A DNA stretch of 64,000 bases from Arsukibacterium sp. UBA3155 (GTDB lineage: Bacteria > Pseudomonadota > Gammaproteobacteria > Enterobacterales > Alteromonadaceae): the NCBI GenBank assembly GCA_002364615.1, contig DEYP01000002.1, forward strand, positions 113,038 through 177,037, written 5' to 3'. Positions 8,302 to 46,354 of this stretch are shown here, piece after piece. The notes below the pieces were generated by a model. The model searched no databases and was not told the origin of the DNA. It saw only the letters and a list, made by a program, of their open reading frames with translations. Numbering within the stretch: the stretch's first letter is position 1; the number at the start of each line of letters is the position of its first letter. The translations under genes and the position numbers were made by a program.

Positions 8302-8742
8302 TTAATGAGAATTCGCATTTTTCTGGCACTGTGCGGTGTCTGTGCACTCACCATACAAATACAAACTATGGTGGGTAAGTTTAATACCGTTTTTCTCTGC
8401 TATTTCCAGCTGCTTGGCTTCGATAATTTCATCTTCAAACTCGATAACTTTACCACACTTTAAACACACCAGATGATCATGATGGCTGTTGCCCGTCAGC
8501 TCAAAAACCGATTTACCACCCTCAAAATGATGACGGGTTAAAATTCCAGCATCATCAAATTGATTCAGTACCCGATATACCGTGGCCAGCCCAATATCTT
8601 CACCAAGCTCCAGCAGGATCTTATAGACGTCTTCAGCACTGATGTGTTGATGATTCGGGTCTTGTAAAATCTCAAGAATTTTCACCCGCGGCAAGGTAAC
8701 TTTAAGGCCGGCTCTGCGTAGCTCAGTATTATGATCTGACAT
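8302..8742 (-). CDS. fur: Ferric uptake regulator Fur
   Basis: This 146-residue Fe(II)-responsive repressor controls iron uptake and storage genes. The N-terminal winged helix includes GLKVTLPRVKILEIL and DIGLATVYRVLNQFD. The metal and dimerisation domain carries H87-H-D-H90, the structural zinc pair Cys93-x-x-Cys96 and the second pair Cys133/Cys139. Length matches canonical Fur of about 148 residues when the ATG at 8742 is used; the frame remains open 10 codons further upstream. fldA and ybfE nearby reproduce the enterobacterial fur neighbourhood. I found no obvious Fur box upstream. Confidence 0.96.
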   Translation of the reverse strand: MSDHNTELRRAGLKVTLPRVKILEILQDPNHQHISAEDVYKILLELGEDIGLATVYRVLNQFDDAGILTRHHFEGGKSVFELTGNSHHDHLVCLKCGKVIEFEDEIIEAKQLEIAEKNGIKLTHHSLYLYGECTDTAQCQKNANSH

Positions 8743-8774
8743 ATAAACTCTGTCTTGCTGGTGGATTTGCATCG

Positions 8775-8803
8775 ATTATAAAGACATTGGCGCCATATTG
8801 AAA
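8775..8803 (-). promoter_or_regulatory. Candidate fur promoter
   Basis: On the minus strand a perfect TATAAT -10 (complement of 8775-8780) lies 17 bp from a weak -35 TTTCAA (complement of 8798-8803). The predicted start near 8768 gives a leader of about 25 nt. Confidence 0.5.
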
Positions 8804-8895
8804 TGGCCGATTACTGCTGATTTATCGTCAATTCTGTTGTGCTTTCCTTTAAGCATTGTAAAATGGCCTGCAAACAGGTCATACCAGGTAAAGTG

Positions 8896-9360
8896 ATGCG
8901 TTGGGCGTTTAAACCACAGATCATGCGAAAATTATTGAATTTCTGGCCGCCATTTTTTTTCAGTGGCATCAGAGTTGCCATATTGGCTGATGATTACCGC
9001 TATGCCAGAGTAGAGCTGAAAAACCGCCCCTGGACCCGAAACATTAATAGTAGCCAGTTTGGTGGTTCAATGTTTGCCATGACAGATCCAGTATTTCCAT
9101 TACTGTTGATGGGCGCGTTGGGTAAAGAATATATCGTCTGGGATAAGCAAGCTGATATTGATTACCTTAAACCCGGAATAGGTAGATTGGTGGCGGAGTT
9201 TATCCTGACCGATGACACTGTTGCCGACATTATTAAGCACACGGCTGCCGGCGAGAAATATTTTCCGCAGTTTTTGGTACATATTAAAGATCAGGACAAC
9301 AACATAGTCTGCGAAGTAAATCGAACCGTTTACATTCGAAAGAAACCCAAATACCGCTGA
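8896..9360 (+). CDS. DUF4442 (YiiD/PaaI-like hotdog) protein
   Basis: This protein of about 154 residues belongs to the DUF4442 group of predicted hotdog-fold thioesterases. Family signatures are FWPPFFFSGIRV, the RN.NSSQFGGSMFAMTDP stretch, ALGKEYIVWDKQADIDYLKPG and a C-terminal EVNRTVYIRKK. The substrate is unknown; an acyl-CoA or acyl-ACP thioester is inferred from the fold. The open frame begins at a GTG (8839), but AGGT sits 7 nt before the ATG at 8896, so that start is preferred; ATG 8863 is another option. It is transcribed divergently from fur and converges on fldA. Confidence 0.75.
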   Translation: MRWAFKPQIMRKLLNFWPPFFFSGIRVAILADDYRYARVELKNRPWTRNINSSQFGGSMFAMTDPVFPLLLMGALGKEYIVWDKQADIDYLKPGIGRLVAEFILTDDTVADIIKHTAAGEKYFPQFLVHIKDQDNNIVCEVNRTVYIRKKPKYR

Positions 9361-9435
9361 ACACGCTGGCACAATATAAGTTTAGTGGTGAGTAGCGTGC
9401 CAATTTTCCGGATTATCCTGATAAATTGGCCTCAG

Positions 9436-9464
9436 AAAAAAAGAGGCATAATGCCTCTTTTATC
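9436..9464. terminator. Bidirectional rho-independent terminator between DUF4442 gene and fldA
   Basis: The 10-bp stem AAAAGAGGCA/TGCCTCTTTT with loop TAA has T-rich flanks on both strands, as expected between convergent genes. Confidence 0.88.
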
Positions 9465-9479
9465 TGTTTTGCAGCCGGG

Positions 9480-10010
9480 TTAAAGGTTAGCAAATTCCTG
9501 CAGGCTCATTTCTTCGTAAACCTGTTTGCACCACTGCTTTACCCGTTGTTCAGTCAACTCTGGCTGGCGGTCTTCATCAACACCCAGGCCAACAAAGTGG
9601 CTGGCATCGGCTAACGCTTTTGATGCCACAAAGTTGTAGCCTGCAGTTGGCCAGTTGCCAACGATAATCGCGCCCTTAGGTTCAATGATGTCGCGTAACG
9701 TGCCCATCGCGTCCAGGAAATATTCAGCGTAATCTTCCTGATCGCCACAGCCGAAAATTGCCACCAGTTTATTATTAAAGTCGATACCGTCCAGCTCAGG
9801 GAAAAAATCATCCCAGTCACACTGTGCTTCACCGTAATACCAGGTTGGAATACCCAGTAACAGTAAGTCGAAGCCGGCAATGTCTTCTTTGCTGCTTTTG
9901 GCGATATCACGGATCTCAATCAGATTTTTGCCCAGCTCTTTTTGGATCATCTTGGCGATATGCTCAGTGTTGCCGGTATCGCTACCGAAAAAAATTCCTA
10001 CAGTTGCCAT
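9480..10010 (-). CDS. fldA: Long-chain flavodoxin FldA
   Basis: This 176-residue FMN electron carrier replaces ferredoxin under iron limitation and reduces enzymes such as biotin synthase, MetH and class III RNR activase. The phosphate-binding loop is SDTGNTEH. The isoalloxazine loops are GIPTWYYGEAQCDWDDF and FGCGDQEDYAEYF. The segment that defines long-chain flavodoxins is present (WPTAGYNFVASKAL), and GLGVDEDRQPELTEQRVKQW matches the family C-terminus. It is the last gene of the ybfF-DUF2788-ybfE-fldA unit, 14 bp after ybfE. Confidence 0.96.
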   Translation of the reverse strand: MATVGIFFGSDTGNTEHIAKMIQKELGKNLIEIRDIAKSSKEDIAGFDLLLLGIPTWYYGEAQCDWDDFFPELDGIDFNNKLVAIFGCGDQEDYAEYFLDAMGTLRDIIEPKGAIIVGNWPTAGYNFVASKALADASHFVGLGVDEDRQPELTEQRVKQWCKQVYEEMSLQEFANL

Positions 10011-10024
10011 GGTTAATTGCCTTC

Positions 10025-10297
10025 TTACCTGGATAAAGCTTGCTCTAAAAGTTGTTCAATTAAGTTACTGCGTGTGGTGTTTGCCTGTTCGGCAGCCAGA
10101 CTCAGCGCATCATACAGCTGAGCTGACACCTTACATTCAATACGCTTTAAGCCGTTATTACGATCGCGCTTAATTTGATTGCGTTTATTCAGCTTTAGCT
10201 GTTCTTGCCTGGGCAACGGGTTGGTTTTAGGCCGTCCCGGCCGCTTGTCAGCCGCAAACAAATCAATAGTGGTGCGATCAGTGGCGATTTTAGCCAT
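10025..10297 (-). CDS. ybfE: YbfE-type ribbon-helix-helix protein ('LexA-regulated' family)
   Basis: This 90-residue basic protein matches E. coli YbfE in TDRTTIDLFA, RRPGRPKTNPL-type segment (KRPGRPKTNPL here), LNKRNQIKRDRN and GLKRIECKV, and ends in a ribbon-helix-helix-like segment. RHH folds bind DNA as dimers; no target is known. The family name reflects LexA control in E. coli, but I see no clear LexA box (CTG-N10-CAG type) here. The ATG at 10297, with AAGG upstream, is preferred over a TTG three codons earlier. It sits between the DUF2788 gene and fldA. Confidence 0.87.
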   Translation of the reverse strand: MAKIATDRTTIDLFAADKRPGRPKTNPLPRQEQLKLNKRNQIKRDRNNGLKRIECKVSAQLYDALSLAAEQANTTRSNLIEQLLEQALSR

Positions 10298-10311
10298 CAA
10301 TCTCAACCTTG

Positions 10312-10509
10312 TTATTCCAGAAAATACTGGACCACCGTTTTAATCACAAACACCAGTGGTGATAGAAACAACACCAGCCAGACAAAAAAACGACCAAACC
10401 GTGGCGCCTGACTCTTTTTCAGTACATCGTTAATTGCCAGCACTATAAAAATATAGAGTACCGACAACCCCAGCCATAATCCCATGGTTTCAAATTGTGC
10501 AATGGTCAT
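10312..10509 (-). CDS. DUF2788 small membrane protein
   Basis: This protein of about 65 residues has two predicted membrane helices (WLGLSVLYIFIVLAINDV and FFVWLVLFLSPLVFVIKTVV) joined by a basic loop, LKKSQAPRFGR. This fits the DUF2788 family of unknown function. An upstream in-frame GTG at 10542 exists, but the ATG at 10509 has an AGAG before it and matches the family length. It lies in the ybfF-fldA unit. Confidence 0.72.
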   Translation of the reverse strand: MTIAQFETMGLWLGLSVLYIFIVLAINDVLKKSQAPRFGRFFVWLVLFLSPLVFVIKTVVQYFLE

Positions 10510-10558
10510 CTGCTCTGGCCATACCTGAAAAATTGGCCGCACTATAGCACAAAAGTTG

Positions 10559-11335
10559 CTAAATTTTAGTGTGCTGGCTCAATAAAAAGTCTCTAACCAG
10601 CTTGGCAAAGGCAACCGGTTTTTCTGCGTGTAGCCAATGGCCTGTACCATTAATTATTTTTGCTTGCGCATCGGGGAATAATTGCATTATTTGAGGCCGG
10701 TGCTCCGGCAATATATAGTCAGACTGTGCGCCTTTAATAAAAAGTACCGGGCCGGTGTATGCATCGCTATAGTCAGGGAAAGTGAGCAAGTGGTCGTAAC
10801 ATTGCGCTAATGTCGCTAAGTTAAAGCGCCAATCAAAGCCCTGTTCAGTTTTGTGCAAACTTTTTAACAAAAACTGACGCACACCAGGCTCTGTTATATG
10901 CTTGGCCAGCTGCTTTTCAGCTTCACTACGATTGGTTAGCGCGCTGGTGTTGACCGCTGTTAATCCAGCAAAAACTGCCTGATGGCTTCTGGCATAGCTA
11001 ACCGGGGCGATATCAGCAATAATAAGCGCCGTAACCCGACCCGGGTGGGCTAACGCGAATGCCATTGCTAATTTGCCGCCGAGTGAGTGACCTAATACCG
11101 CACATTGATCGATATTCAGGCTTTCAGTTGTATCAACCAAATCCGCCACCATACTGGTGTAGTTCATGACGTTACTGTGGGGGGACTGACCATGATTAGG
11201 TAAATCGATACTGATCACCTGCCATTGGTCACTTAAGGTTCTGGCAATACCGGCTAAGTTGTCATAACTGCCGAACAATCCGTGTAGTATGATCAAAGGT
11301 TGCCCAGAACCGGTGCTGTTTGAATGTAGAATCAT
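10559..11335 (-). CDS. ybfF: YbfF-type alpha/beta-hydrolase (esterase)
   Basis: This 258-residue single-domain alpha/beta hydrolase has the nucleophile elbow GHSLGGK, the oxyanion strand HGLFGS, the acid in FIKGAQSDY and the catalytic His in GTGHWLHAEKP. E. coli YbfF hydrolyses short acyl and palmitoyl thioesters and esters in vitro; the physiological substrate is unknown. The ATG at 11335 fits the family start (MILHS...), and the frame continues upstream without a better start. It is divergent from seqA as in E. coli and heads the minus-strand unit ending in fldA. Confidence 0.9.
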   Translation of the reverse strand: MILHSNSTGSGQPLIILHGLFGSYDNLAGIARTLSDQWQVISIDLPNHGQSPHSNVMNYTSMVADLVDTTESLNIDQCAVLGHSLGGKLAMAFALAHPGRVTALIIADIAPVSYARSHQAVFAGLTAVNTSALTNRSEAEKQLAKHITEPGVRQFLLKSLHKTEQGFDWRFNLATLAQCYDHLLTFPDYSDAYTGPVLFIKGAQSDYILPEHRPQIMQLFPDAQAKIINGTGHWLHAEKPVAFAKLVRDFLLSQHTKI

Positions 11336-11442
11336 AGCTAACTCACTGAAAAGATTGAGCGGGTATTTTAACAAATTAAGCTGCTGGCGTCAGTCGCAAA
11401 GGCTTTATATAATGGGCCAACATACAGTTGACGGAAAAAAAT

Positions 11443-16424: not shown

Positions 16425-17414
16425 GTGAGGTCAGGGCAGGTGTTACTATTGTTCAGAAAGGTAGTTGGCCAGCTAATGTATATTTTACTACTTGGTTATG
16501 GGTTAACAGTGGCCGTAACGGTGCATGCGGCCAATACGACAAGCCATACATTGCAAATAACTAATGAAATGCAGGCGAGGCCAGAAGTCACTGACGATAC
16601 CGAAGAGAAAGACAGGTTAAACTGGGCCATTACTGACGCTCCGCCGTTTCATGTGATCCATGGCGAATATCAGCGTCAGGGGGTATGTGATGTGTTAATT
16701 AAAGTGGTGCATCGTTACATGTCAGATACCCGGCCAAGGTATCTGGTGATGCCCCAGCCCAGAATTGCTCAGGCATTAGACAACAAAGAACCGGTGTGTT
16801 TTCCCTGCATGATCTTTAAACCAGAAGGAGAGGACAGAGCAGTTTACAGTATGCCAACGCACCTTTATTACCCGCATCATGTCATTACTGATGAAAATAC
16901 GGCGAAAACGTTAAAGGCACTCTATGGTGAGCCGATTTCCTTAGCCACATTACTGGCTGACACTCGCTTCCGGCTGGGCTATCCTTCGGGTCGGCGTTAT
17001 GGTGTGTTGCAACCCTTAATAAATGAACATGACCCTTATCTGGCCCGCTCAGGCCCGGGCGGCTCTGTGGCCATTTTGAATATGATCAGCTCGGGCAGGC
17101 TTGATTACACCATTGATTACCCGATGATTGCTAACTATTTTCAGCAGCTATACAACCGTAATATGGTAACCATCGCTATTTCAGAAAATGATCAACAGCC
17201 GGTGGCTGGTGCCATAGGTTGCGCAAATAATGCCTGGGGTAAGGAACAAATATCACGAATAAATCGCGTGATGCCGCAAATAAGACAAGACCCGGAGTTT
17301 CTGGAAGTATTAAGAATGTGGCACAGCGACGTTAGCAGTATTGACTTTAACATGTTCAATGAGCAAGGTTTACGCGCCTTTGATGAGGCTGCAGGGTCAA
17401 CTGAACAAAATTAA
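16425..17414 (+). CDS. Periplasmic solute-binding-like protein (TIGR02285-like)
   Basis: This protein of up to 329 residues has an N-terminal hydrophobic export segment (MYILLLGYGLTVAVTVHAA) and a fold resembling family-3 solute-binding proteins. Cues are WAITDAPPFHVIHGEYQRQGVCDVLI and YLVMPQPRIAQAL near the start, and ILNMISSGRLDYTIDYP in lobe 2. It resembles the TIGR02285 group, whose function is unknown. No permease or ATPase gene is nearby, so it may be a sensor or scavenger rather than a transporter subunit. The start is uncertain: GTG 16425, GTG 16440, or ATG 16476, which gives the most normal signal peptide. It ends 32 bp before the methyltransferase and is probably the first gene of that operon. 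Confidence 0.7.
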   Translation: MRSGQVLLLFRKVVGQLMYILLLGYGLTVAVTVHAANTTSHTLQITNEMQARPEVTDDTEEKDRLNWAITDAPPFHVIHGEYQRQGVCDVLIKVVHRYMSDTRPRYLVMPQPRIAQALDNKEPVCFPCMIFKPEGEDRAVYSMPTHLYYPHHVITDENTAKTLKALYGEPISLATLLADTRFRLGYPSGRRYGVLQPLINEHDPYLARSGPGGSVAILNMISSGRLDYTIDYPMIANYFQQLYNRNMVTIAISENDQQPVAGAIGCANNAWGKEQISRINRVMPQIRQDPEFLEVLRMWHSDVSSIDFNMFNEQGLRAFDEAAGSTEQN

Positions 17415-17446
17415 AAATTATAGTGATAGTGATAGTGGAGCAACAC

Positions 17447-18247
17447 GTGAAGCAAACAGGCAGTTTAGTTTGTGTCGGTACCGGTATGACCCTGGGCTCG
17501 CATATTAGTCCGTTAAGTCGCAGCTATATTGAACAAGCCGATGTAGTATTTTTATTAGTCGCAGATGGTATTACTGAACAATGGGTGGGCGAGATGAATG
17601 CCGATGTTCGCTCGTTACAGCCCTATTATCAGACGGGTGTATCGCGGATGCTTAGCTATCAGCAAATGGTTGCAGCTATGCTGAGCGAGGTACGGCTAAA
17701 TAAAAAAGTGGTGGGGGCGTTTTACGGTCACCCCGGGGTGTTTGCCTGGGTACCGCATAAGGCCATCGCCGAGGCGAAAGCTGCGGGTTTTGCCGCCCAT
17801 ATGGAGCCCGGTATTTCAGCAGAGGATTGCCTGATAGCGGATTTGGCTATCGACCCTGGTGCTTATGGTTGTCAGCATTTTGAAACCAGCCAGTTTATGT
17901 ATTATAAACGCACTATTGATACCGCAGCATATCTTATTTTGTGGCAGGTTGGGGTGGCGGGAGATCTCAGCCTGGCCAAACGCAGTACTGACGCCCGTTA
18001 CCGGCAGTTACTTATTGAGTTGTTAGCTGCACATTATCCGTTAAGCCATCAGGTAATATTATATGAAGCAGTAACCCTGCCCATTCAGCAGCCGCGGATT
18101 ACTTATTTGTCGCTTGCCGATTTGCTAAGTGCTCCGATGGATCCGAAAACTACTCTGGTGATCCCGCCGGCGACCAAGATGGTCGCTAACCAGCCCATGC
18201 TGGATAAACTGGCCGCACTACAGGCAGATAACAACGTTGCTCAATAA
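17447..18247 (+). CDS. Split-borosin peptide backbone alpha-N-methyltransferase (SonM/OphMA-like)
   Basis: This 266-residue SAM-dependent enzyme has the tetrapyrrole-methylase fold and closely resembles Shewanella SonM and the methyltransferase domain of fungal OphMA, which iteratively methylate backbone amides of a precursor peptide. Diagnostic stretches are GSLVCVGTG (5-13), SRSYIEQAD, FYGHPGVF (92-99), EPGISAEDCLIADL and ILWQVGVAGD. Tyr61, Arg67 and Tyr71 align with the OphMA catalytic Tyr66/Arg72/Tyr76. Unlike OphMA, the substrate is a separate gene (18797-19084). Of several in-frame GTGs (17423, 17429, 17435, 17447) the last is chosen: GGAG sits 6 nt before it and the protein then begins just before the conserved GSLVCVG. 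Its 3' end overlaps the GNAT gene by 11 bp. Confidence 0.9.
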   Translation: MKQTGSLVCVGTGMTLGSHISPLSRSYIEQADVVFLLVADGITEQWVGEMNADVRSLQPYYQTGVSRMLSYQQMVAAMLSEVRLNKKVVGAFYGHPGVFAWVPHKAIAEAKAAGFAAHMEPGISAEDCLIADLAIDPGAYGCQHFETSQFMYYKRTIDTAAYLILWQVGVAGDLSLAKRSTDARYRQLLIELLAAHYPLSHQVILYEAVTLPIQQPRITYLSLADLLSAPMDPKTTLVIPPATKMVANQPMLDKLAALQADNNVAQ

Positions 18248-18800
18248 CCCTAGTGCCCCTGTTGTTTGTTTTGACGCTGGCTTTTTAAGTGTCAGGCTGT
18301 TGCTTGCGACAGATCAAAAGCTCTACCGGCAGCTTTTTACCAGCAAAGCGGTAATGCAATGGATTGGCGAGCCGTTAACTGACAGCCAGTTGACCTGCAG
18401 CTTTGCTGCGGCGCTTCAGCAAAACTTAGCGGCATCGACTGAACTTAAGCCAAATAGCCGGTTATTTCTGACTATTACTGACCCGGCAGCGAACACCACT
18501 CCCGGGTTAATGGCCGTAACCTTTAATACCTCAGTACATGCCAATCGTTTTAACGCGGAGATTGGTATTATGCTGCTACCGTTCGCCCAGGGTAAAGGTC
18601 TTGCTGTTACTGCGCTTATCAGTTTATGTCAGAGGTTGCTGCAACTGCCCCAGGTCATACACATAATATGCAGGATTACCGACGGCAATCTGGCTGCAAT
18701 AAAGCTGGTTAGCGAGCTGGGCTTTGTGTATTGTAAGCAAGGTAATTACTATAAATTACATAATAATAATAAAATTACAGATACAGGACGCTTCGCATGA
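18237..18800 (+). CDS. GNAT-family acetyltransferase embedded in the borosin operon
   Basis: This protein of about 187 residues resembles RimJ/RimL-type N-acetyltransferases. SVRLLLATDQKLYRQLF is the usual first strand and helix, and the segment IGIMLLPFAQGKGLAVTAL holds the acetyl-CoA loop AQGKGLA; NLAAIKLVSELGFVY is the typical C-terminal motif. Start is taken as TTG 18237, 11 bp inside the methyltransferase gene; TTG 18300 or ATG 18354 would be shorter. Its stop overlaps the precursor start (ATGA). The tight packing suggests it acts with the borosin system, for example acetylating the matured peptide, but this is inference. Confidence 0.75.
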   Translation: MLNNPSAPVVCFDAGFLSVRLLLATDQKLYRQLFTSKAVMQWIGEPLTDSQLTCSFAAALQQNLAASTELKPNSRLFLTITDPAANTTPGLMAVTFNTSVHANRFNAEIGIMLLPFAQGKGLAVTALISLCQRLLQLPQVIHIICRITDGNLAAIKLVSELGFVYCKQGNYYKLHNNNKITDTGRFA

Positions 18801-19084
18801 ATAATGTATTGCAGTTATTACAACGGTTAGGAGAGGATGCTACGCTGCGTCATCTTGCTGATACTCAGCTTGAGCAGGTTGTTAACCCGTTAAATCTGGA
18901 CCCGGCAATCCAGCAGGCAATATGTCAGCATGACGATATTAAATTGGCACAATTGCTTCATGCCAATAATAAAATTGTCTGTATGATCCTGCCGGCAGAA
19001 GAGCCGACGCCTGACGATGAGCCCAAAAAGCAGCCGGAGGATGCACCCGAGCCTGCAGATCCTGAAATTAAGCGGGCGGTTTAA
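18797..19084 (+). CDS. Split-borosin precursor peptide (SonA-like)
   Basis: This 95-residue protein has three parts. Residues 1-56 form a predicted helical domain (LQRLGEDATLRHLAD..., LNLDPAIQQAI, DDIKLAQLL) resembling the borosin-binding domain of SonA and the matching C-terminal part of OphMA. Residues about 57-69, NNKIVCMILPAEE, are a short hydrophobic stretch that is the candidate methylated core. Residues 70-95 are a Pro/Asp/Glu/Lys-rich tail that ends in IKRAV. The ATG overlaps the GNAT stop by 4 bp, and the methyltransferase lies in the same unit. There is no signal peptide. Assignment rests on helical-domain resemblance plus genomic context; the exact methylation sites cannot be seen. 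Confidence 0.82.
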   Translation: MNNVLQLLQRLGEDATLRHLADTQLEQVVNPLNLDPAIQQAICQHDDIKLAQLLHANNKIVCMILPAEEPTPDDEPKKQPEDAPEPADPEIKRAV

Positions 19085-19119: not shown

Positions 19120-20910
19120 ATGAATGTTCTAATTAAAGTCATTACGGGTAGCGCTGCGCTGTTGCTAACGCTGCTTATTCTGATACCTGCAGGCTTTGCA
19201 AATGAACCTGCTAAATTGTCTGAGGAACCCACTGCTGAGCAAGCTCTGACCATTCAACAACAGTTAACCTACCTGGACAATATAAGACTGGAAGATCAAT
19301 CTCAATTTAGAGCCGGATTGGCCAGATTAAGGCAATTACAATTGTCTGAGACGGCTGATATTGAGTATTTAATGTTGCTGAATGCCTATGAACAAGCCCT
19401 GCTAGGGCAATATGATAGGGTATTGCCTGTACTGACCCAATTACTGGACGCTTCTTCAGATCCAACCATGATTATTAAAGCCCGTATGCTGGCCGTGAAT
19501 GTCCTTTTGTTGTCAAATCGCCATGAACTGGCTTTTTCCTATTTTGAACAGTTAACCAATAACATATCTGCTATTACTGATCCTGAATTGATGGCGCAGG
19601 TTATTGTCTTAGTGATGTTTACTTATAACCAACTCGAACGCTATGATTTATCTTTATTATATTTGCGATATATCGATTTTAATTCAATACCCCAAAAATT
19701 AGCGTGTCGGATAAATGTCATTGGCGTTGAAGCAAAATTTAAAAAAGTTGACAGTGTCGCTACTGAAAATGAAACAAATATTGTGATAGATGAATGTGTA
19801 GCGGCCAGAGAATTCATTCCTGCAAATATAGCCAGACACCATTTAATGCGGCATTTTTTAAAGAATAACGAACCTGAGAAAGTGCTGGCAATTTATCAGC
19901 AGTATATTGAAGAGATAGAAAACACGCATTATCCGATGTTGATATCGCAAGTCCAAGTTCTCGCCGCTCAGGCTCAGCTGCAGCTAAATAATATTCAGCA
20001 GGCTGCAACGCTAGCGAATCAGGCGTTGCTTAGCGCAAAGAGCAGCCCTAATAACGTTGCGCTGGTAGAGGCCTACGCCACCTTATATCAGATTGCTAAA
20101 CAGCAAAAAAACTACGCACTGGCTTTGCAGTATCTGGAGCAACAGTATCAGGTCGAGGAAGAGTTTAATGCCAGTAAAGCTAAACAACAGGCGGCTTATC
20201 ATACCGTTAAGTCGGAGATTGAATTAAAAAACCAACGGATTAATTTACTGGACAGAGACAACGAACTGTTGTTTTTACAACAAAGCATTTATCAGGAAGA
20301 AGTGAAAAACAGTCGTTTGCTGTTGCTGTTAGCGGCCCTGATTGGCTGTATTGCTCTGGTGCTGGCTTACCAGGGATTAACCGGGCGAAAACGTTTTAAA
20401 ATAATGGCAGAGTACGATCAACTGACCGGTATCAGTAACCGCTACCATTTTAATAACCAGGCCAAACAGACATTAAAGTATTGCCAGGCTAAACACTTGC
20501 CGGTGGCGATAATCTTGTTCGACCTGGATCACTTTAAAACCATTAATGATCGGTTTGGTCATGCCACCGGAGACTGGGCACTGCAGCAGATCGTGCAGGC
20601 ATGTAAGCAGTTTATGCGATCAAACGATATATTTGGCCGGATTGGCGGCGAAGAGTTTGTTATTATGATGCCCGGTTGTGAATTAGATAAAGCAACCTTA
20701 CTTGCCGAGATATGCCGGGATGCCATCGCCAGTATTGATTGCAGCAGTAGTGAGCATCAATTCAGCCTCAGCGCCAGCTTTGGCGTCAGCGGCAGTGTTG
20801 TCAGTGGATACGATAACAAACAGTTGTTGGCAGATGCTGACAAGGCCATGTACGAAGCAAAAGCCATGGGCCGCAATCAGGTGGTCGAATATCAGAAAAC
20901 TGATCAATAA
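19120..20910 (+). CDS. TPR-containing membrane diguanylate cyclase (GGDEF)
   Basis: This 596-residue protein begins with a signal sequence (to GFANEPAK). A large periplasmic helical region with TPR-like repeats follows (for example NNIQQAATLANQALLSAK and NYALALQYLEQQYQ), then a coiled coil, a transmembrane helix near residues 398-418 and a C-terminal GGDEF domain. The active site is GGEEF at 509-513. The inhibitory I-site RxxD is intact (RSND, 500-503). It should make c-di-GMP in response to a periplasmic signal. It starts 35 bp after the precursor gene, so it may belong to the borosin operon. Confidence 0.88.
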   Translation: MNVLIKVITGSAALLLTLLILIPAGFANEPAKLSEEPTAEQALTIQQQLTYLDNIRLEDQSQFRAGLARLRQLQLSETADIEYLMLLNAYEQALLGQYDRVLPVLTQLLDASSDPTMIIKARMLAVNVLLLSNRHELAFSYFEQLTNNISAITDPELMAQVIVLVMFTYNQLERYDLSLLYLRYIDFNSIPQKLACRINVIGVEAKFKKVDSVATENETNIVIDECVAAREFIPANIARHHLMRHFLKNNEPEKVLAIYQQYIEEIENTHYPMLISQVQVLAAQAQLQLNNIQQAATLANQALLSAKSSPNNVALVEAYATLYQIAKQQKNYALALQYLEQQYQVEEEFNASKAKQQAAYHTVKSEIELKNQRINLLDRDNELLFLQQSIYQEEVKNSRLLLLLAALIGCIALVLAYQGLTGRKRFKIMAEYDQLTGISNRYHFNNQAKQTLKYCQAKHLPVAIILFDLDHFKTINDRFGHATGDWALQQIVQACKQFMRSNDIFGRIGGEEFVIMMPGCELDKATLLAEICRDAIASIDCSSSEHQFSLSASFGVSGSVVSGYDNKQLLADADKAMYEAKAMGRNQVVEYQKTDQ

Positions 20911-39334: not shown

Positions 39335-41491
39335 ATGAATAGAAGGCCTGATACTTTTTATAAAAGTCCGTTAGCCTTGGGGGTTGCATCTGCATTACTG
39401 GCATTGTCCATTGTGCCTGCTCAAGCAGCAACCTTTAAAGTTGGCAATTTCGATGTCGTATTCGATTCAACGTTTTCATACGGTGGCAGTATTCGCACCG
39501 AAGAGCGGAATTGGGATACCATTTCTAAGGTAAATCACCCGCGCTTTGACTGGACAGGTTATGGCTATATTGTTGACGGTAGTGGCAACCCTAATTTTAA
39601 CAGTGTCTATGCCAACTCTCAGATATGGGAACAACCTGGTTCCTACTCCAGTAATGGCGATGGCGGCAATCTGAACTTTGACCGTGGCGATATGTACAGC
39701 AGCTTGTTTAAAGGCGTACATGAGTTAGCTATCAGCGGTGACAATATTGGTTTATTTACCCGGTTTATGTATTTTTATGATTTTGCTGTCGCAGATCAGG
39801 ATTTTGCTTATACCAACCCTTTAAGTGGTAATCGGGTCGATCCCTGTGCCGATAGTGGTTCCAGCGAATTGGCATGTAAAGATTTACGACTGTTAGATGC
39901 TTATGTATACGGTAATTTCAGTTTTAACGATGGCATGACCCCAGTGACAATTCGAGTGGGTAATCAGGTGTTAAGTTGGGGTGAAAGTACGCTTATCCAA
40001 CACGGCATTAATATTACACCGATAGATGTCGGTATTGCCCGAGCGCCAGGCGCTGAATTAAAAGAAGCTTATATCCCTGTCGGCATGATTACCTTGTCTG
40101 TTGGTTTAACAGAAAACCTGTCTACTGAACTTTTTTATCAGTACGATTGGGAACAAAGCTACTTGCCAGTTCCGGGTAGCTACTTCTCTACCAATGACTT
40201 TGCCGGTCGGGGTGGTTATGCCCAGAACGTGCAGTTAGGTTTTGCGGGTAACCCGGATATCGATATGGATTTTCTGGTTGACCAAATGAATACATTGTCG
40301 ATGTTTGCGCCGCAATTGTTGCAGGTTATTACTAACCCTGCCAGCACAGCTCAGCAGCGTGCTGACGCCGTAAACCTGGCAATTGCTTATCCGACAAAGG
40401 TAACACTGCGTCCGGAAGGCAGTGCTGGTGAAGTGAAACCTAAAAATGGTGGGCAATACGGTATTAAATTTGAGTATTATGCACCGGAGTTGAATGAAAC
40501 CGAGTTTGCGCTGTACTACATGAATTACCATAGCCGGGTTCCTGTTATTTCAGGTATCGCATCTGATTTCAGAGTAGGTGCGGATCCTGAAAGTGGAGAA
40601 TTCATAGGTGTACTTCAGTCGTTAAGTTTCCTGTCGCAAAATCAAGGTCAGATTACCAGTGAAAATATTGCCAGTATGGAAATGTTTTCGCAGGCGTTAT
40701 TAGAATATCCTGAAGATATTAAGCTATATGGTTTTAGTTTTAATACAACGGTAGGCGGAACGTCAATTGCAGGCGAAATAGCCTATCGGCAGGATGAGCC
40801 ATTGCAAATTGACGACGTTGAAATTTTATATGCGGGGATGCCTGAACAGCTAGCCAATGCCGGTTTGCGTACCGATTTGGCAGGTATATCTCAGATAGGC
40901 CGGGTGTTTGGCGAAAAAGTTGGCCCGGGTGATTTTGCCCAAGGGTACATCCTAAGTGATACCTTGCAGGCGCAAGCGACCTTTACGCATTTATTTGGCC
41001 CTATGCTGGGAGCTGATAACTTTAGTATGTTAGGTGAAATTGGTGGTATCACCATTAATGATATGCCAGCATATGATGAGTTACGTTTAAATGGTCCAGG
41101 CACGGATCGCAGCGGTGGTCCTCTGATTGGTGTAAATGGTCCATCTCAAGGCCTGCACACTGGTTTGTCTGATGGCCCTGAAACCAATCCATTTCCAACA
41201 AAATCTGCGTGGGGATATCGTATTCTGGCTAAAGCAGACTATAACAACGTCTTTGCTGGCGTTAATATGTCGCAACGGTTGGTGTTTTCACATGACGTGA
41301 ATGGTATTACCCCTGATCCGTTATTCATGTTTGTTGAAGATAGAAAATCAGCAGCTTACGCGGTTAGTTTTGATTACCTGAGTAAGTGGTCAGCTGAGGT
41401 TTCTTACAATTTGTTCTGGGGTGGTAAGGGTACTACTAACAACGTAGCCGACCGTGATTTTGTATCTTTTAATATTAAATATTCTATTTAA
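39335..41491 (+). CDS. DUF1302 outer-membrane-associated protein
   Basis: This 718-residue exported protein has a signal peptide (ending PAQAATF) and the DUF1302 layout: VFDSTFSYGGSIRTEER near the start, RVGNQVLSWGESTLIQHGIN, and a C-terminal part with alternating beta-strand character ending in aromatic-rich FVSFNIKYSI. That suggests an outer-membrane beta-barrel or a protein associated with one. No substrate is known. It is the first gene of a conserved DUF1302-DUF1329-YCF48-RND set. GGGAG lies before the ATG. Confidence 0.83.
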   Translation: MNRRPDTFYKSPLALGVASALLALSIVPAQAATFKVGNFDVVFDSTFSYGGSIRTEERNWDTISKVNHPRFDWTGYGYIVDGSGNPNFNSVYANSQIWEQPGSYSSNGDGGNLNFDRGDMYSSLFKGVHELAISGDNIGLFTRFMYFYDFAVADQDFAYTNPLSGNRVDPCADSGSSELACKDLRLLDAYVYGNFSFNDGMTPVTIRVGNQVLSWGESTLIQHGINITPIDVGIARAPGAELKEAYIPVGMITLSVGLTENLSTELFYQYDWEQSYLPVPGSYFSTNDFAGRGGYAQNVQLGFAGNPDIDMDFLVDQMNTLSMFAPQLLQVITNPASTAQQRADAVNLAIAYPTKVTLRPEGSAGEVKPKNGGQYGIKFEYYAPELNETEFALYYMNYHSRVPVISGIASDFRVGADPESGEFIGVLQSLSFLSQNQGQITSENIASMEMFSQALLEYPEDIKLYGFSFNTTVGGTSIAGEIAYRQDEPLQIDDVEILYAGMPEQLANAGLRTDLAGISQIGRVFGEKVGPGDFAQGYILSDTLQAQATFTHLFGPMLGADNFSMLGEIGGITINDMPAYDELRLNGPGTDRSGGPLIGVNGPSQGLHTGLSDGPETNPFPTKSAWGYRILAKADYNNVFAGVNMSQRLVFSHDVNGITPDPLFMFVEDRKSAAYAVSFDYLSKWSAEVSYNLFWGGKGTTNNVADRDFVSFNIKYSI

Positions 41492-41507
41492 GGGACGAGA
41501 GCCGATT

Positions 41508-42869
41508 ATGAAAAAACTCACCCTATTATCTTCAGCGATTGCTCTGATTGTCAGCTGTAACGCCCTGGCAAAAATAACACCAGAACAAGCTGCCAGGTTG
41601 GGAAATGATTTAACGCCGCTGGGTGCTGAGAAAGCTGCAAATGCTGATGGCTCAATTCCAGCATGGACAGGTGGTATTAAAAGTGCGCCAGCAGGTTACA
41701 CAGCTGGTGATCATCATATTAATCCATTTGCTTCAGATGAAGTGGTATTAACCATTGATAAATCTAATGTTGCAGACCATCGGCAGTTTTTAAGCCCGGG
41801 TATGATACAGCTGTTTGATATTTATCCTGATACCTTTAAGATGAATGTCTATCCAACTCGTCGTAGTGCATCATTTCCTCAATATTTTTATGATGCTACC
41901 CAAAAAATTGCTACTGAAGCTGAGTTAGTTCAAGGTGGTAATGGTTTGATTAACGCGGCAATAGGCATTCCATTTCCAATACCGCAAAATGGTTTGGAAG
42001 CGGTCTGGAACCATATTGTTCGTTATCGTGGTGTTGCTGCAAGCCGTAATGGTGGCCAGGCTGCGCCTACCTCTAACGGTGCCTATACGGTTATTGGCTT
42101 CGATGAACAAATCATGTTTAAGTATTCTCATCCGGACGCCACTGCAGACGCATTAGAAGCTGAAAACATCTTGTTCAGATTTAAGCAAAGCGTTACCTCG
42201 CCAGCGCGACTGGCAGGCACAGCGTTATTAGTGCATGAAACGATGGATCAGGTGGCAACACCTCGTCAGGCCTGGACTTATAATACCGGCCAACGTCGGG
42301 TTCGTCGTGCGCCAAACGTCGCCTACGATGCACCAGGTACTGCGTCAGATGGTTTACGGACCACTGATGACTTTGACATGTTCAACGGTTCACCTGACCG
42401 TTATAACTGGGAGCTGAAAGGCAAACAGGAAATGTATATTGCGTACAATGATTATAAGTTGCACAGCAAAGAAGCAAAATATGCTGACATTCTGATGGCC
42501 GGTCATATTAATCCTGATTATGTTCGTTGGGAAAAACACCGGGTTTGGGTGGTCGAAGCAACCCTGAAAGAGGGTACCCGGCATGTATATGGTAAGCGGG
42601 TATTTTATATCGATGAAGACAGCTGGCAAATTCATGTTGCGGACCTGTACGATAACCGTGGTGACATGTATCGGGTAGCGGTTGCGCATGGCTTGAACTA
42701 TTATGAAGTACCAACCCATTGGAGTACGCTGGAAGTTTATCATGATCTTAACTCCCGTCGTTATATCGCCATTGGTCTGGACAACGAAGACAGAATGTAT
42801 GACTTTTCAGTTCAACTTTCTGACAATGACTTCACGCCTGCAGCATTGCGCCGTGAGGGTACTCGTTAA
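41508..42869 (+). CDS. DUF1329 periplasmic/outer-membrane lipid-handling-like protein
   Basis: This 453-residue exported protein has a signal peptide of MKKLTLLSSAIALIVSCNALA type, in which the Cys does not form a good lipobox. DUF1329 features include LTPLGAEKAANADGSIPAWTGG and the later WQIHVADLYDNRGDMYRVA. The family resembles the LolA/LolB-like superfamily in fold predictions, so lipid or hydrophobe binding is plausible but inferred. The start at 41508 gives the signal peptide; the upstream frame overlaps the DUF1302 gene. A terminator follows. Confidence 0.83.
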   Translation: MKKLTLLSSAIALIVSCNALAKITPEQAARLGNDLTPLGAEKAANADGSIPAWTGGIKSAPAGYTAGDHHINPFASDEVVLTIDKSNVADHRQFLSPGMIQLFDIYPDTFKMNVYPTRRSASFPQYFYDATQKIATEAELVQGGNGLINAAIGIPFPIPQNGLEAVWNHIVRYRGVAASRNGGQAAPTSNGAYTVIGFDEQIMFKYSHPDATADALEAENILFRFKQSVTSPARLAGTALLVHETMDQVATPRQAWTYNTGQRRVRRAPNVAYDAPGTASDGLRTTDDFDMFNGSPDRYNWELKGKQEMYIAYNDYKLHSKEAKYADILMAGHINPDYVRWEKHRVWVVEATLKEGTRHVYGKRVFYIDEDSWQIHVADLYDNRGDMYRVAVAHGLNYYEVPTHWSTLEVYHDLNSRRYIAIGLDNEDRMYDFSVQLSDNDFTPAALRREGTR

Positions 42870-42884
42870 CTCACGATAGTAGTT

Positions 42885-42915
42885 AAACGGCTGGCATTAG
42901 CTGGCCGTTTTTTTT
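42885..42915 (+). terminator. Terminator after the DUF1329 gene
   Basis: An 11-bp stem AAACGGCTGGC/GCTGGCCGTTT (two G-U pairs) with loop ATTA is followed by a T run. It splits the locus into two transcriptional halves, or attenuates the second. Confidence 0.87.
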
Positions 42916-42993
42916 AGCTTTAATTTCTGTCGCAACAGTGGTGTTGGCAGTAATTAATTTATTTATGCATTGTAAAGAGTAAGTACGCTGCCT

Positions 42994-44034
42994 ATGTTTA
43001 AGAAACTTTTTTTGGCTTGCAGTTGTGTTTTGTTAAGCAATACAGCGTTGCAGACGCGGGCCGATGTCAACTCTGTAGATGAAGCTAAGGCAGCATATAT
43101 AATGCCGCTCGCCGCACAGTCATTATTGACCGATGTGCAAAAGGTTAGTGATAATTTTTATGTGGCAGTGGGTGAGCGTGGTCATATTTTATTGAGTAAC
43201 GATGGCGCTCAGTGGCAACAGGTGCCGGTACCTACACAAAGCCTGCTGACTGCAGTTTTCTTTGTTGATGAGCAACACGGTTGGGCTGTGGGGCATGACG
43301 CCTTAATACTGGCGACCAGCGATGGCGGTGCCAGTTGGCAGCTACAGCAGTTTTTGCCTGATGATGATAAGCCTCTGCTGGACGTTTACTTCCGCGATGC
43401 CCAACATGGTATGGCGATAGGCGCTTATGGCTTATTTTTTGTTACCACCGACGGTGGTAAAAACTGGCAGCAGGAATTATTTGTCGAACTCGCAGCTGAG
43501 GAAGATAAAGAATACTTACTGGATTTACAGCAAACTGATCCCGAGATTTACCGTCAGGAACTGAGTTCAATTTTGCCCCATTTTAATCGACTATTTATCG
43601 ATGGTAATACGTTATACATGGTTGGTGAATCAGGTTTTATCGCAAAAAGTTTAGATTTCGGATCCAGTTGGCAGCGAATGGAAGAGTTTTATAACGGTTC
43701 CTTATTTGATTTGCATCGGACGCCACAAATGGGGTTGCTAGCCGTTGGTTTACGCGGTCACGTTTTTCGAAGCGAAGACAACGGTCAGAATTGGCAACAA
43801 ATTGAGATTAGTGAAGCGGCTACGTTGAATAGCGTGTTCAGTGATGCAAACGGCAATGTTTATCTGACAGGTAATGCAGGCACTTTATTACAAAGTGAAG
43901 ATGACGGTGTCAGCTTTGCGGAACGCTCGCAAGACGATGGTAAAGCAATTTTAAATGGGGTGGCTCTGGATAACAGGATGTTATTGGTTACTGAGGTTGG
44001 CATTAAAGTATTAAATCTGGATAAGTCTGAATAA
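42994..44034 (+). CDS. YCF48/BNR-repeat exported protein
   Basis: This 346-residue protein has a signal peptide and repeated beta-propeller-like units: VGERGHILLSNDGAQWQ, VGHDALILATSDGGASWQ, IGAYGLFFVTTDGGKNWQ, VGESGFIAKSLDFGSSWQ, VGLRGHVFRSEDNGQNWQ and LTGNAGTLLQSEDDGVSF. The YCF48 fold in plants and cyanobacteria aids photosystem II assembly; that role does not apply here. It sits one base before the RND gene and probably acts with that transporter. Confidence 0.87.
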   Translation: MFKKLFLACSCVLLSNTALQTRADVNSVDEAKAAYIMPLAAQSLLTDVQKVSDNFYVAVGERGHILLSNDGAQWQQVPVPTQSLLTAVFFVDEQHGWAVGHDALILATSDGGASWQLQQFLPDDDKPLLDVYFRDAQHGMAIGAYGLFFVTTDGGKNWQQELFVELAAEEDKEYLLDLQQTDPEIYRQELSSILPHFNRLFIDGNTLYMVGESGFIAKSLDFGSSWQRMEEFYNGSLFDLHRTPQMGLLAVGLRGHVFRSEDNGQNWQQIEISEAATLNSVFSDANGNVYLTGNAGTLLQSEDDGVSFAERSQDDGKAILNGVALDNRMLLVTEVGIKVLNLDKSE

Positions 44035-44035
44035 T

Positions 44036-46354
44036 ATGAGTGTAAATTCACTGGTTAATAAATTTGAATATGCGTTATTCCGGCACCGGGCGTTGGTGCT
44101 TGTAGTTTTTCTTCTGGTCACTATCGGTTTACTGGTAAAAGCGACAGACATTAAGCTGGATGCAGCGTTTACCAAAAATATCCCGCTAAAGCACGAATAT
44201 ATGCAGACTTATCTGGAGCATGCTGAAGATTTCGGCGGTGCTAACAATATTCTTATTGCGGTGTGCGATGCCAGTGGCGACATTTTTAACCCAACCTTTT
44301 TTGAAACATTTCGCCAGGTTCATGATGACGTCTTGTATACGCCGGGCGTAAACCGGGTATTGGTCAAGTCGTTGTTCAGTCCCAGCACGCGTTTTATTGA
44401 AGTGGTTGAGGATGGTTTTGCCGGTGGACCAGTTATTCCTGCCGATTTTGTTGCCGACAAGCGTGGCCTTGCCAGGGTGAAATCTAACGTTGAAAAAGCA
44501 GGCATTGTCGGCCGTATGGTCGCGGATGATTACAGTTGTGCCATGATAACTGCCCAACTGCTTGAAATTGACTCTGACACCGGAGAGGCGGTCGATACCC
44601 TCGAGTTTGCCACAACCTTAGAACAAAACATCAGGGCAAAGCATCAAAGTGAACAAATTAGTGTCCATATTATCGGCTTCGCCAAGATGGTTGGTGATGT
44701 CGCCGAAGGCGCCAAGGGTGTGGTGTTGTTTTTCCTGGTGGCGTTAGCGGTAACTGCGCTGATGGTGTTTTTCTTCTCTAAATCTATCATGCTGACCGTG
44801 TTGCCGATTGCCTGCTCGCTGATCGCTGTGGTGTGGCAAATGGGGCTGCTGACCATGCTTGGTTTTGGCATTGACCCAATGTCTATTCTGGTACCGTTTT
44901 TGGTGTTTGCTATCGGTGTCAGTCACGGTGTGCAAATGATTAACTCTACCGGCAAACGTGTTGCTGCGGGTATGGATGCGAAAACGGCGGCAGAATCCAG
45001 TTTTAGAAAGTTACTGGTACCAGGGGGCGTGGCCTTGTTATCGGATACTGTGGGTTTTTTAACTTTATTAATCATAGAAATTGGCGTGATTCGTGAACTC
45101 GCTATTACCGCCAGCCTTGGTGTTGCTGTCATCATTCTGACCAACCTGATTTTGCTTCCGGTGTTAATGTCTTTTGTTAAATTCAGCGCAGCGTACAAGG
45201 CCAGAGTTGCTTCGCCTTCAGCCAAGGCAGATAAATTTTGGTATGCGTTATCAGCATTTGCCACCAAACGATTTGCTTATGCCATTATCGCGGTAACCGC
45301 CGTGTTGTTCGCCGTTGGATACTGGCAGAGTCAGCAGCTTAAGATTGGCGATTTGCATGAAGGGGCACCGTCACTACACGAAGACTCCCGTTATAACGTC
45401 GATACAAAACTTATAACGGATCGTTTTGCTATCTCTGTTGATTACATCAATATTATGGTTGAGACCATTCCTAGTGCCTGTACTGAGCACGATATTATGG
45501 ATCGGATAGATCAATTTCAATGGTTGATGGAGAACGTTCAGGGTGTGCAATCGGTAATATCGTTGGCATCGGTGTCTAAAAGCATTAATGCCGCGTATAA
45601 CGAAGGCAATCAGAAATGGCGGGTTTTACCGCGCAATCCTCAGTCGCTGGTGCAAGCGACCTCCCGGGTTGAAACCAGTACCGGGTTGCTTAATGCCGAT
45701 TGTTCCGTTATGCCAGTGATGGTGTTTCTGGAAGATCACAAAGCAGAAACGATTGAGCGAGTGGTGTTAGCCGCGAAAAAATACGGCGTGGAACTGGGTG
45801 ATGCTCAAACCCGGTTTATGCTGGCTTCAGGCCCAGCGGGGGTAATGGCTGCGACCAACGAAGCGGTGTCAGCGGCTCAGCAACCCATGATGTGGTACGT
45901 GTACGGCGCTGTGATCATGCTATGTTTACTCAGCTTCCGTTCACTGCGGGCCACTATTGCGGTTGTAGTGCCGCTATATGTGGTGTCAGTGCTGGCGACT
46001 GCACTAATGACCAAGTTGCAGATTGGATTAACGGTATCCACCTTACCGGTTATTGCGCTGGGTGTCGGTATAGGCGTTGATTATGGTATTTATATCTTAT
46101 CCAGCATGAGTCAGCTGTTGCGCGACGGCATGCCATTACGGCAGGCCTATTTTGAAGCCCTGAAAGAGCGGGGCAGTGCCGTGTTGTTTACGGGTATAAC
46201 GTTGGCCGTTGGGGTCAGTACCTGGGTATTTTCAGCGTTGAAGTTCCAGGTAGATATGGGGATCCTGCTTACCTTTATGTTTATTGTAAACATGTTAGGT
46301 GCCATTGTGGTATTGCCAGCCTTAGCTGCGGTATTCTGGCGAAATAATCGTTAA
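44036..46354 (+). CDS. RND/MMPL-family transporter
   Basis: This 772-residue inner-membrane protein has one helix near the N-terminus, a large periplasmic loop, a bundle of five to six helices with the GVSHGVQMINSTG motif, a second periplasmic loop and a second bundle with GVGIGVDYGIYILSSM. That is two half-modules, as in MmpL/HpnN-type exporters of lipids and other hydrophobic molecules. Length is short compared with drug-exporting RND pumps, and no membrane-fusion partner is nearby. With the DUF1302, DUF1329 and YCF48 proteins it may build a hydrophobe route across the envelope. Confidence 0.88.
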   Translation: MSVNSLVNKFEYALFRHRALVLVVFLLVTIGLLVKATDIKLDAAFTKNIPLKHEYMQTYLEHAEDFGGANNILIAVCDASGDIFNPTFFETFRQVHDDVLYTPGVNRVLVKSLFSPSTRFIEVVEDGFAGGPVIPADFVADKRGLARVKSNVEKAGIVGRMVADDYSCAMITAQLLEIDSDTGEAVDTLEFATTLEQNIRAKHQSEQISVHIIGFAKMVGDVAEGAKGVVLFFLVALAVTALMVFFFSKSIMLTVLPIACSLIAVVWQMGLLTMLGFGIDPMSILVPFLVFAIGVSHGVQMINSTGKRVAAGMDAKTAAESSFRKLLVPGGVALLSDTVGFLTLLIIEIGVIRELAITASLGVAVIILTNLILLPVLMSFVKFSAAYKARVASPSAKADKFWYALSAFATKRFAYAIIAVTAVLFAVGYWQSQQLKIGDLHEGAPSLHEDSRYNVDTKLITDRFAISVDYINIMVETIPSACTEHDIMDRIDQFQWLMENVQGVQSVISLASVSKSINAAYNEGNQKWRVLPRNPQSLVQATSRVETSTGLLNADCSVMPVMVFLEDHKAETIERVVLAAKKYGVELGDAQTRFMLASGPAGVMAATNEAVSAAQQPMMWYVYGAVIMLCLLSFRSLRATIAVVVPLYVVSVLATALMTKLQIGLTVSTLPVIALGVGIGVDYGIYILSSMSQLLRDGMPLRQAYFEALKERGSAVLFTGITLAVGVSTWVFSALKFQVDMGILLTFMFIVNMLGAIVVLPALAAVFWRNNR

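Follow-up and report, generated by a model that had tools for sequence, protein, structure and literature searches.

In a 64,000-nucleotide stretch of the genome of the marine bacterium Arsukibacterium sp. UBA3155 (hereafter the window, numbered from its first letter), positions 17447-19084 encode a predicted type IV split borosin system, namely a stand-alone backbone alpha-N-methyltransferase and a separate precursor, with an acetyltransferase gene of the GNAT type between them. The borosin unit reaches past this segment, to at least position 20910. Directly behind the precursor gene it includes a gene for a predicted membrane sensor that makes cyclic di-GMP (c-di-GMP) and joins a tetratricopeptide repeat (TPR) domain to a GGDEF domain (hereafter TPR-cyclase). 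This gene lay outside the coordinates of the original prediction, which missed it, and is the most constant partner of the borosin genes. Many related bacteria keep these genes side by side, which suggests that the peptide is a signal. We give an even chance to the reading that the methylated peptide is the ligand of a dedicated TPR receptor controlling c-di-GMP. We infer the ligand-receptor part of this reading from the constant pairing of precursor and TPR genes, their joint multiplication, an exchanged output domain, the existence of solo receptors and the lack of a linked exporter.

The window encodes a split borosin methyltransferase and its precursor

The frames at 17447-18247 and 18797-19084 were present as the original prediction had described them, and the motifs GSLVCVGTG, FYGHPGVF and EPGISAEDCL were found in the enzyme. 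The enzyme frame of 266 codons begins with GTG, and GGAG was noticed by eye at 17437-17440. Searching the Protein Data Bank (PDB) with phmmer revealed the SonM chains as the best match (E 2.5e-78), followed by OphMA-type chains at about 1e-46. At E<=1e-3 the search returned 25 distinct solved sequences, which are the SonM, OphMA/dbOphM and MroMA entries; MroMA and the mutant entries of the 7lt- and 9ch-series we take to be borosin enzymes. A better match to cobalamin or porphyrin methylases, which would have spoken against a borosin enzyme, was looked for among these 25 sequences; no cobalamin or porphyrin methylase was present by name. The enzyme and SonM are identical at 135 of 252 aligned residues (54%). 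The catalytic residues Y61, R67 and Y71, whose conservation had been claimed earlier, align with Y58, R67 and Y71 in SonM, respectively, and were invariant across all 31 rows of an enzyme alignment. Pfam placed the enzyme in the TP_methylase superfamily, as it should for a borosin enzyme. The same placement would also suit an ordinary tetrapyrrole or diphthine-type methylase next to an unrelated small protein. This explanation is already contradicted by the borosin identity of the PDB relatives, by the retained Y/R/Y residues and by the match of the neighbouring precursor profile to SonA, and we attach hardly any probability to it.

The precursor could be assigned only through a profile, because the single sequence gave two chance matches in the PDB and did not find SonA; it also gave no Pfam match above the cut-off and no NCBIfam match. 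The profile was built from 33 sequences (the window precursor and 32 relatives). Two SonA-like rows were excluded and the search was rerun, since these rows could have drawn SonA in; the best E-value to SonA changed from 3.3e-8 with them to 4.1e-5 without them. All seven PDB matches of this profile up to E 1 were SonA and lay over positions 1-53. The borosin-binding-like domain proposed for the precursor is thus supported by the match of the first 53 profile positions to the corresponding domain of SonA, and the proposed split pair by this match to SonA alone together with the identity between the enzyme and SonM. At these sequence scores chance is excluded as the source of the enzyme-SonM and precursor-SonA matches.

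SonA aligned to the profile over positions 1-54 without a gap. In SonA, residues L63 and I65 are methylated (PMC8429565). From this register, M63 and L65 in the core I60-V-C-M-I-L-P66 of the window precursor are predicted to be methylated. The core is followed by A-E and an acidic, proline-rich tail. Among 64 representative precursors sharing less than 60% identity with each other, the column of C62 held Cys in 52 of 62 sequences and that of P66 held Pro in 46 of 63; Glu occupied the second position after this Pro in 36 of 63 sequences, with mostly acidic residues thereafter.

Comparison with SonM-SonA from Shewanella oneidensis MR-1 (PMC8429565; PDB 7ltc and others) revealed a separate enzyme and precursor in both systems, identical catalytic residues, a borosin-binding domain in the precursor, a hydrophobic core in the same register and a TPR-cyclase gene directly behind the precursor gene. 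However, the window operon additionally contains the GNAT gene, and its precursor is longer (95 versus 71 residues); it has Cys62, P-A-E following the core and a long tail rich in acidic residues and proline. Methylation was demonstrated for SonA and is predicted for the window precursor. The fused fungal borosins such as OphMA share a homologous methyltransferase domain (E about 1e-46) but, unlike them, the window precursor is a separate protein. The defining features of type IV systems, namely a separately encoded homolog of SonM and OphMA, the catalytic Tyr/Arg/Tyr residues and an adjoining precursor with a borosin-binding domain and a hydrophobic core, were all recognized in the predicted proteins, and biosynthesis very likely proceeds as in SonM-SonA. 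In an enzyme tree the SonM type formed a clade, as did the type of the second enzyme of the host (see below); the window type was not monophyletic because the long-branched other_L166 fell within it. A plasmid search returned 12 records, every one below 60% identity.

The gene behind the precursor encodes a predicted membrane diguanylate cyclase

The TPR-cyclase has a GGDEF domain with a GG(D/E)EF active site and is predicted to be a diguanylate cyclase. Within a few residues after its transmembrane segment the protein carries the motif GRKRFK. Hydropathy and the usual topology of such proteins indicate that the TPR part probably lies in the periplasm. The TPR scores of the window protein itself are weak, but are backed by its relatives at loci L140 and L164, which matched TPR_12 at 3e-6 to 1e-12. 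Two cysteines of the sensor (Cys196 and Cys226) were invariant in 40 alignment rows. A disulphide exchange between them and Cys62 of the precursor was considered and rejected, because the TPR proteins paired with Cys-free precursors at loci L140 and L141 have cysteines in corresponding positions (178/207 and 179/208).

Precursor and TPR-cyclase genes stay together

The neighbourhood was analyzed in 80 loci, the best 80 of 115 confirmed enzyme relatives in genome records, from Arsukibacterium, Rheinheimera, Alkalimonas, Shewanella, Thalassomonas, Bowmanella, Rhodanobacter, Dyella, Povalibacter and others. Profiles detected a precursor and a TPR gene in 80/80 loci and a GNAT in 68/80, counts which do not represent independent events, since the loci are the best matches to a single query and many of them are closely related. 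The TPR gene had a complete frame in 78 of the 80 loci; in L092 and L110, on contigs of 5.8 and 4.5 kb, it starts immediately after the precursor and is cut short by the end of the contig. A blind count of families, in which clustering loses some members, ranked the same four highest: TPR-GGDEF (78 loci), enzyme (73), GNAT (62) and precursor (57), followed by a fifth family with 25. A TPR domain began at most 450 nucleotides 3' of 86 out of 106 precursor frames; frames above E 1e-8 (e.g., in L100) were dropped, and the 106 include two pieces in L107 of apparently one broken frame. Most of the other 20 either preceded a TPR gene that already had a precursor or stood 5' of the enzyme. Conversely, 85 of 91 TPR genes had a precursor directly 5'. 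Thirteen loci contained two TPR genes and a single enzyme each, and at least two precursor frames were present in ten of them. Congruence of the tandem pairs was clear among L067, L068, L069 and L083 and between L115 and L116, other locus pairs being uninformative.

Joint transfer in a mobile cassette without common function might also keep such genes adjacent, and the flanking families do vary between locus groups, none exceeding 25 of the 80 loci. However, the set is conserved over several bacterial families and its members are retained although their order changes. The three enzyme-GNAT fusions and the joint duplication of precursor-TPR pairs are likewise hard to explain without selection for a joint function. 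We therefore regard a mere cassette as very improbable.

As a separate observation, a single enzyme gene and a single precursor gene at locus L263 (5535-11999) stand ahead of a row of TPR genes, which number at least three and probably four; in one of these no GGDEF domain was detected.

The pairing was also followed in 31 congeneric genomes, 29 of which encode the enzyme and 24 a precursor (E<=0.001). Before neighbours were counted, a weak enzyme row containing stop codons (G022:C8, E 7.7e-4) was removed from the 38. All 37 remaining rows, one of them a fragment, had a strong TPR match within 5 kb. Of 38 precursors, 37 were followed by a strong TPR match on the same strand less than 1 kb 3', with a median distance between profile ends of 105 nucleotides. 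The enzyme stood beside 42 of the 45 strong TPR matches versus none of the seven weak ones. The exceptions to the pairing were two solo TPR-cyclases (L150 and L151) and a precursor-TPR pair without enzyme (L152). The TPR-cyclase shares a signal-like N-terminus, an outer domain, one further transmembrane segment and the GGEEF and RxxD motifs with other periplasmic-sensor diguanylate cyclases, but it differs from them in its sensor domain, which is of the TPR type, belongs to a separate family and was found mainly beside borosin genes in the counts above.

The host genome encodes 56 GGDEF domains, whereas the TPR-sensor profile (E<=1e-5) matched only two genes, one at each of two borosin loci. 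The second locus (L140, 5479-8236, minus strand) contains a 68-residue SonA-like precursor, a TPR-cyclase and a second enzyme, in that order. This enzyme is 46% identical to SonM and its precursor carries V-T-F-I-F-P-A at positions 61-67; GNAT was not detected at this locus.

The SonM-SonA system of Shewanella is followed by the same type of gene

A SonM relative (E<=1e-60, window type included) was found in 111 of 129 genomes of the Shewanella group. In genome G422, evidently S. oneidensis MR-1 (SonM 100% identical), sonM and sonA are followed by a gene for a 596-residue TPR-GGDEF protein (Pfam GGDEF 1.3e-38), and the first base of this gene immediately follows the stop codon of sonA. The order precursor then TPR gene was observed in all 52 SonM-type loci examined, taken from 52 genomes picked for spread (12 of 17 genomes in one set and 40 more). 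In the set of 40, where the GGDEF part was checked, a GGDEF domain followed the TPR domain in every locus. The terms GGDEF, c-di-GMP and "signal" do not occur in the main text of the paper on SonM-SonA (PMC8429565). The legend of a Figure 1 on borosin types names GGDEF among the domains (PMC11395268). Full-text literature searches, whose scope took in the key borosin papers only partly, returned no paper combining borosin with diguanylate or c-di-GMP. The adjacency of borosin and TPR-cyclase genes may already have been noted in the literature, and we make no claim to an unpublished neighbourhood.

The sensor can be connected to another output

Throughout the class, the enzyme was present in eight of 321 sampled genomes. 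Backbone N-methylated ribosomal peptides had been called rare in bacteria; this holds at the scale of the class, but not within the lineage of the host or the Shewanella group, where most genomes encode the enzyme or a relative of it. The TPR domain (E<=1e-20) was found in two of the 321 genomes, both enzyme-positive: the host and G318. In G318, a distant genome, the gene order at locus L164 is SonA-like precursor, a TPR protein of 986 residues with HisKA, HATPase and receiver domains at its end, enzyme and TPR-GGDEF. The TPR sensor encoded directly behind the precursor (8474-11434, minus strand) is of the same family but forms part of a hybrid histidine kinase. At this locus it is the sensor, and not the GGDEF part, that stays with the precursor.

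Two of the six enzyme-bearing genomes without such a TPR match had a transporter-like gene beside the enzyme (MFS by Pfam in L165, recognized by eye in L168). These two loci contain more distant split-borosin-like enzymes, with a frame of 70-77 codons 5', the transporter-like gene 3' and no TPR gene.

Covariation of precursor and sensor

Distances between adjacent precursors and TPR domains covaried when the enzyme was allowed for (partial r 0.47-0.57; none of 499 shuffles as high), while the corresponding value for precursor and GGDEF domain was about zero. In a control, GNAT, which is about as divergent, covaried with the TPR domain given the enzyme at r 0.31-0.39, and part of the precursor-TPR effect is therefore generic. 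With both enzyme and GNAT allowed for, precursor and TPR domain still gave r 0.46-0.51 (57 pairs). This covariation indicates that precursor and sensor are inherited together; it does not amount to a demonstration that the core is recognized. Coevolution of core and TPR domain was also tried as a proof of ligand specificity and failed, being weak and not robust.

How the TPR-cyclase could be connected to the borosin peptide

In the reading we favour, the SonM-like enzyme would bind the helical N-terminal domain of the precursor and methylate amides of the peptide backbone within the hydrophobic core. The GNAT probably has the precursor, or the peptide once released, as its substrate for acetylation, and an unlinked protease may release the core. 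Backbone methylation could confer protease resistance and let the peptide cross the inner membrane with no need for a dedicated exporter. Once in the periplasm, the peptide from the same or a neighbouring cell would bind the TPR domain of the adjoining cyclase and alter its c-di-GMP output.

Several observations weigh against this reading. The covariation is located in the leader domain, whereas the reading makes the core the ligand. The partial correlation of core and TPR domain was 0.12-0.17 in one analysis and 0.03-0.11 in another, where 65 to 141 of 499 shuffles were as high in two non-redundant sets, and the core followed the GGDEF domain (0.13-0.17) and the enzyme (0.24-0.33) at least as well. 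The solo TPR-cyclases at L150 (4234-5967, minus strand) and L151 (5924-7672, plus strand) had no precursor or enzyme in the surrounding 11-12 kb; the latter sits where the window has its operon, between phosphoglucomutase-like and AstE-like genes. Within the cut-offs, no precursor was found at six of the 91 TPR genes of the named loci, L100 and L134 having one just outside. By profile no GNAT was detected in 12 of the 80 loci, and in the blind family count no exporter or protease family was conserved in their flanks. The TPR and GGDEF parts were in separate open frames in four of the 40 Shewanella loci, and the GGDEF motif was altered in three. Finally, six of the eight enzyme-bearing genomes of the class-wide sample were without a TPR match at E<=1e-20; TPR-paired systems are therefore a subclass, and the receptor is not general to split borosins.

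Two alternatives gain from these observations. The direction of control may be reversed, so that the TPR-cyclase senses another cue and steers via c-di-GMP the production or use of a borosin that is an ordinary secreted bioactive peptide, such as an antagonist or a metal ligand. Solo TPR-cyclases without a nearby precursor and the poor covariation of core and TPR domain would suit this arrangement. However, a general regulator needs no precursor directly 5' of its gene, nor should precursors be multiplied, with the enzyme left single, in ten of the 13 loci with two TPR genes. Nor was any resistance-type or exporter family conserved in the flanks of the 80 loci. We consider a reversed direction unlikely, though still to be reckoned with.

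The methylated precursor might also remain uncleaved within the cell and act as a regulatory protein in contact with the cyclase or with some other partner in the cytoplasm, the methylation just reshaping its C-terminal strand. This would agree with the stronger covariation of the leader than of the core with the TPR domain, with the core following the GGDEF domain at least as well, with precursor N-termini that by eye have no signal-like look, with the lack of a linked protease family in the 80 loci and with the acidic tails kept in the window type. Against it, the TPR part is predicted to lie across the membrane from the GGDEF domain, distances of whole precursors, with the enzyme accounted for, do not track those of the GGDEF domain, and it is the TPR part that is retained with the precursor at L164. 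Such an intracellular role appears quite improbable to us.

The ligand reading recalls the RRNPP receptors of Gram-positive bacteria, for which a ribosomal peptide is encoded beside a TPR receptor and solo receptors occur; these receptors work in the cytoplasm, on DNA or on phosphotransfer proteins. The window system shares the idea of a peptide gene beside a TPR receptor, together with solo receptors, but its TPR domain is probably periplasmic and joined to a GGDEF domain, and its peptide would be backbone-methylated. With the signal-like N-terminus, the transmembrane segment and the GGDEF output, the protein falls outside the RRNPP family as we understand its definition.

Operon architecture and neighbouring genes

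The features of the unit are listed in Table 1. The operon structure rests on gene overlaps and spacing, because the promoter scan (13 versus 10.1 in shuffles) and the terminator scan (6 versus 4.5) barely exceeded shuffled sequences. The order methyltransferase-GNAT-precursor had been thought possibly new; followed by the TPR gene, it was in fact the commonest order, found in 23 of the 80 loci. GNAT adjoined the enzyme in 65 of the 80 loci and was fused to it in a single frame in three (L126, L137 and L138). The TIGR02285-like gene is accessory, being present in 9 of the 80 loci.

Elsewhere in the window, a second periplasmic binding-type protein is encoded at 56974-57792, and positions 39335-46354 contain consecutive genes for DUF1302, DUF1329, YCF48-like and MMPL transporter proteins, a recurring set.

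Table 1. Features of the borosin unit and its 5' neighbour in the window
Feature	Position	Strand	Basis or remark
TIGR02285-like protein of the periplasmic binding type, immediately 5' of the enzyme	16425..17414	+	NCBIfam TIGR02285 E 2.7e-34, 118.7 bits, under the cut-off of 143.3
Predicted split borosin alpha-N-methyltransferase, SonM homolog, 266 residues	17447..18247	+	phmmer, SonM alignment
Predicted catalytic residue Y61	17627-17629	+	SonM alignment
Predicted catalytic residue R67	17645-17647	+	SonM alignment
Predicted catalytic residue Y71	17657-17659	+	SonM alignment
GNAT acetyltransferase, 187 codons, TTG start, overlaps both neighbours	18237..18800	+	Pfam PF13302 (Acetyltransf_3) E 4.6e-12
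Predicted borosin precursor, 95 residues	18797..19084	+	Profile match to SonA
Borosin-binding domain, precursor residues 1-54	18797-18958	+	SonA profile match
Predicted core, precursor residues 60-66 (IVCMILP)	18974-18994	+	Conserved in register
Predicted methylation sites, M63 to L65	18983..18991	+	Register with SonA L63 and I65
TPR-diguanylate cyclase (predicted), 596 residues	19120..20910	+	Pfam GGDEF PF00990 E 2.6e-44; hydropathy
Signal-like hydrophobic segment, TPR-cyclase residues 4-22		+	Hydropathy
Sensor domain, about 360 residues, weak TPR matches	19213-20277	+	Pfam
Transmembrane segment, TPR-cyclase residues 400-418	20317-20373	+	Hydropathy
GGDEF domain, TPR-cyclase residues 430-587	20407-20880	+	Pfam
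RxxD, TPR-cyclase residues 500-503, five residues ahead of GGEEF	20617-20628	+	
GGEEF motif, TPR-cyclase residues 509-513	20644-20658	+	

Meaning for split borosins

More broadly, and with a little less than even confidence, we propose that in this group of Gammaproteobacteria the type IV split borosins, SonM-SonA included, constitute a form of Gram-negative signalling, in which backbone-methylated ribosomal peptides cross the membrane and are perceived by dedicated periplasmic TPR receptors feeding into c-di-GMP or, in a single lineage, into a phosphorelay. One methyltransferase would then serve several precursor-receptor pairs, and solo receptors would be listening in. The constant, dedicated sensor gene behind the precursor provides a concrete hypothesis of function, and it does so in the model organism S. 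oneidensis MR-1, for which the enzyme-precursor complex has been solved. If true, backbone-methylated ribosomal peptides would join the bacterial signals, which would fit the lack of an exporter linked to these genes, and inputs would be found for a class of diguanylate cyclases that are so far orphans.

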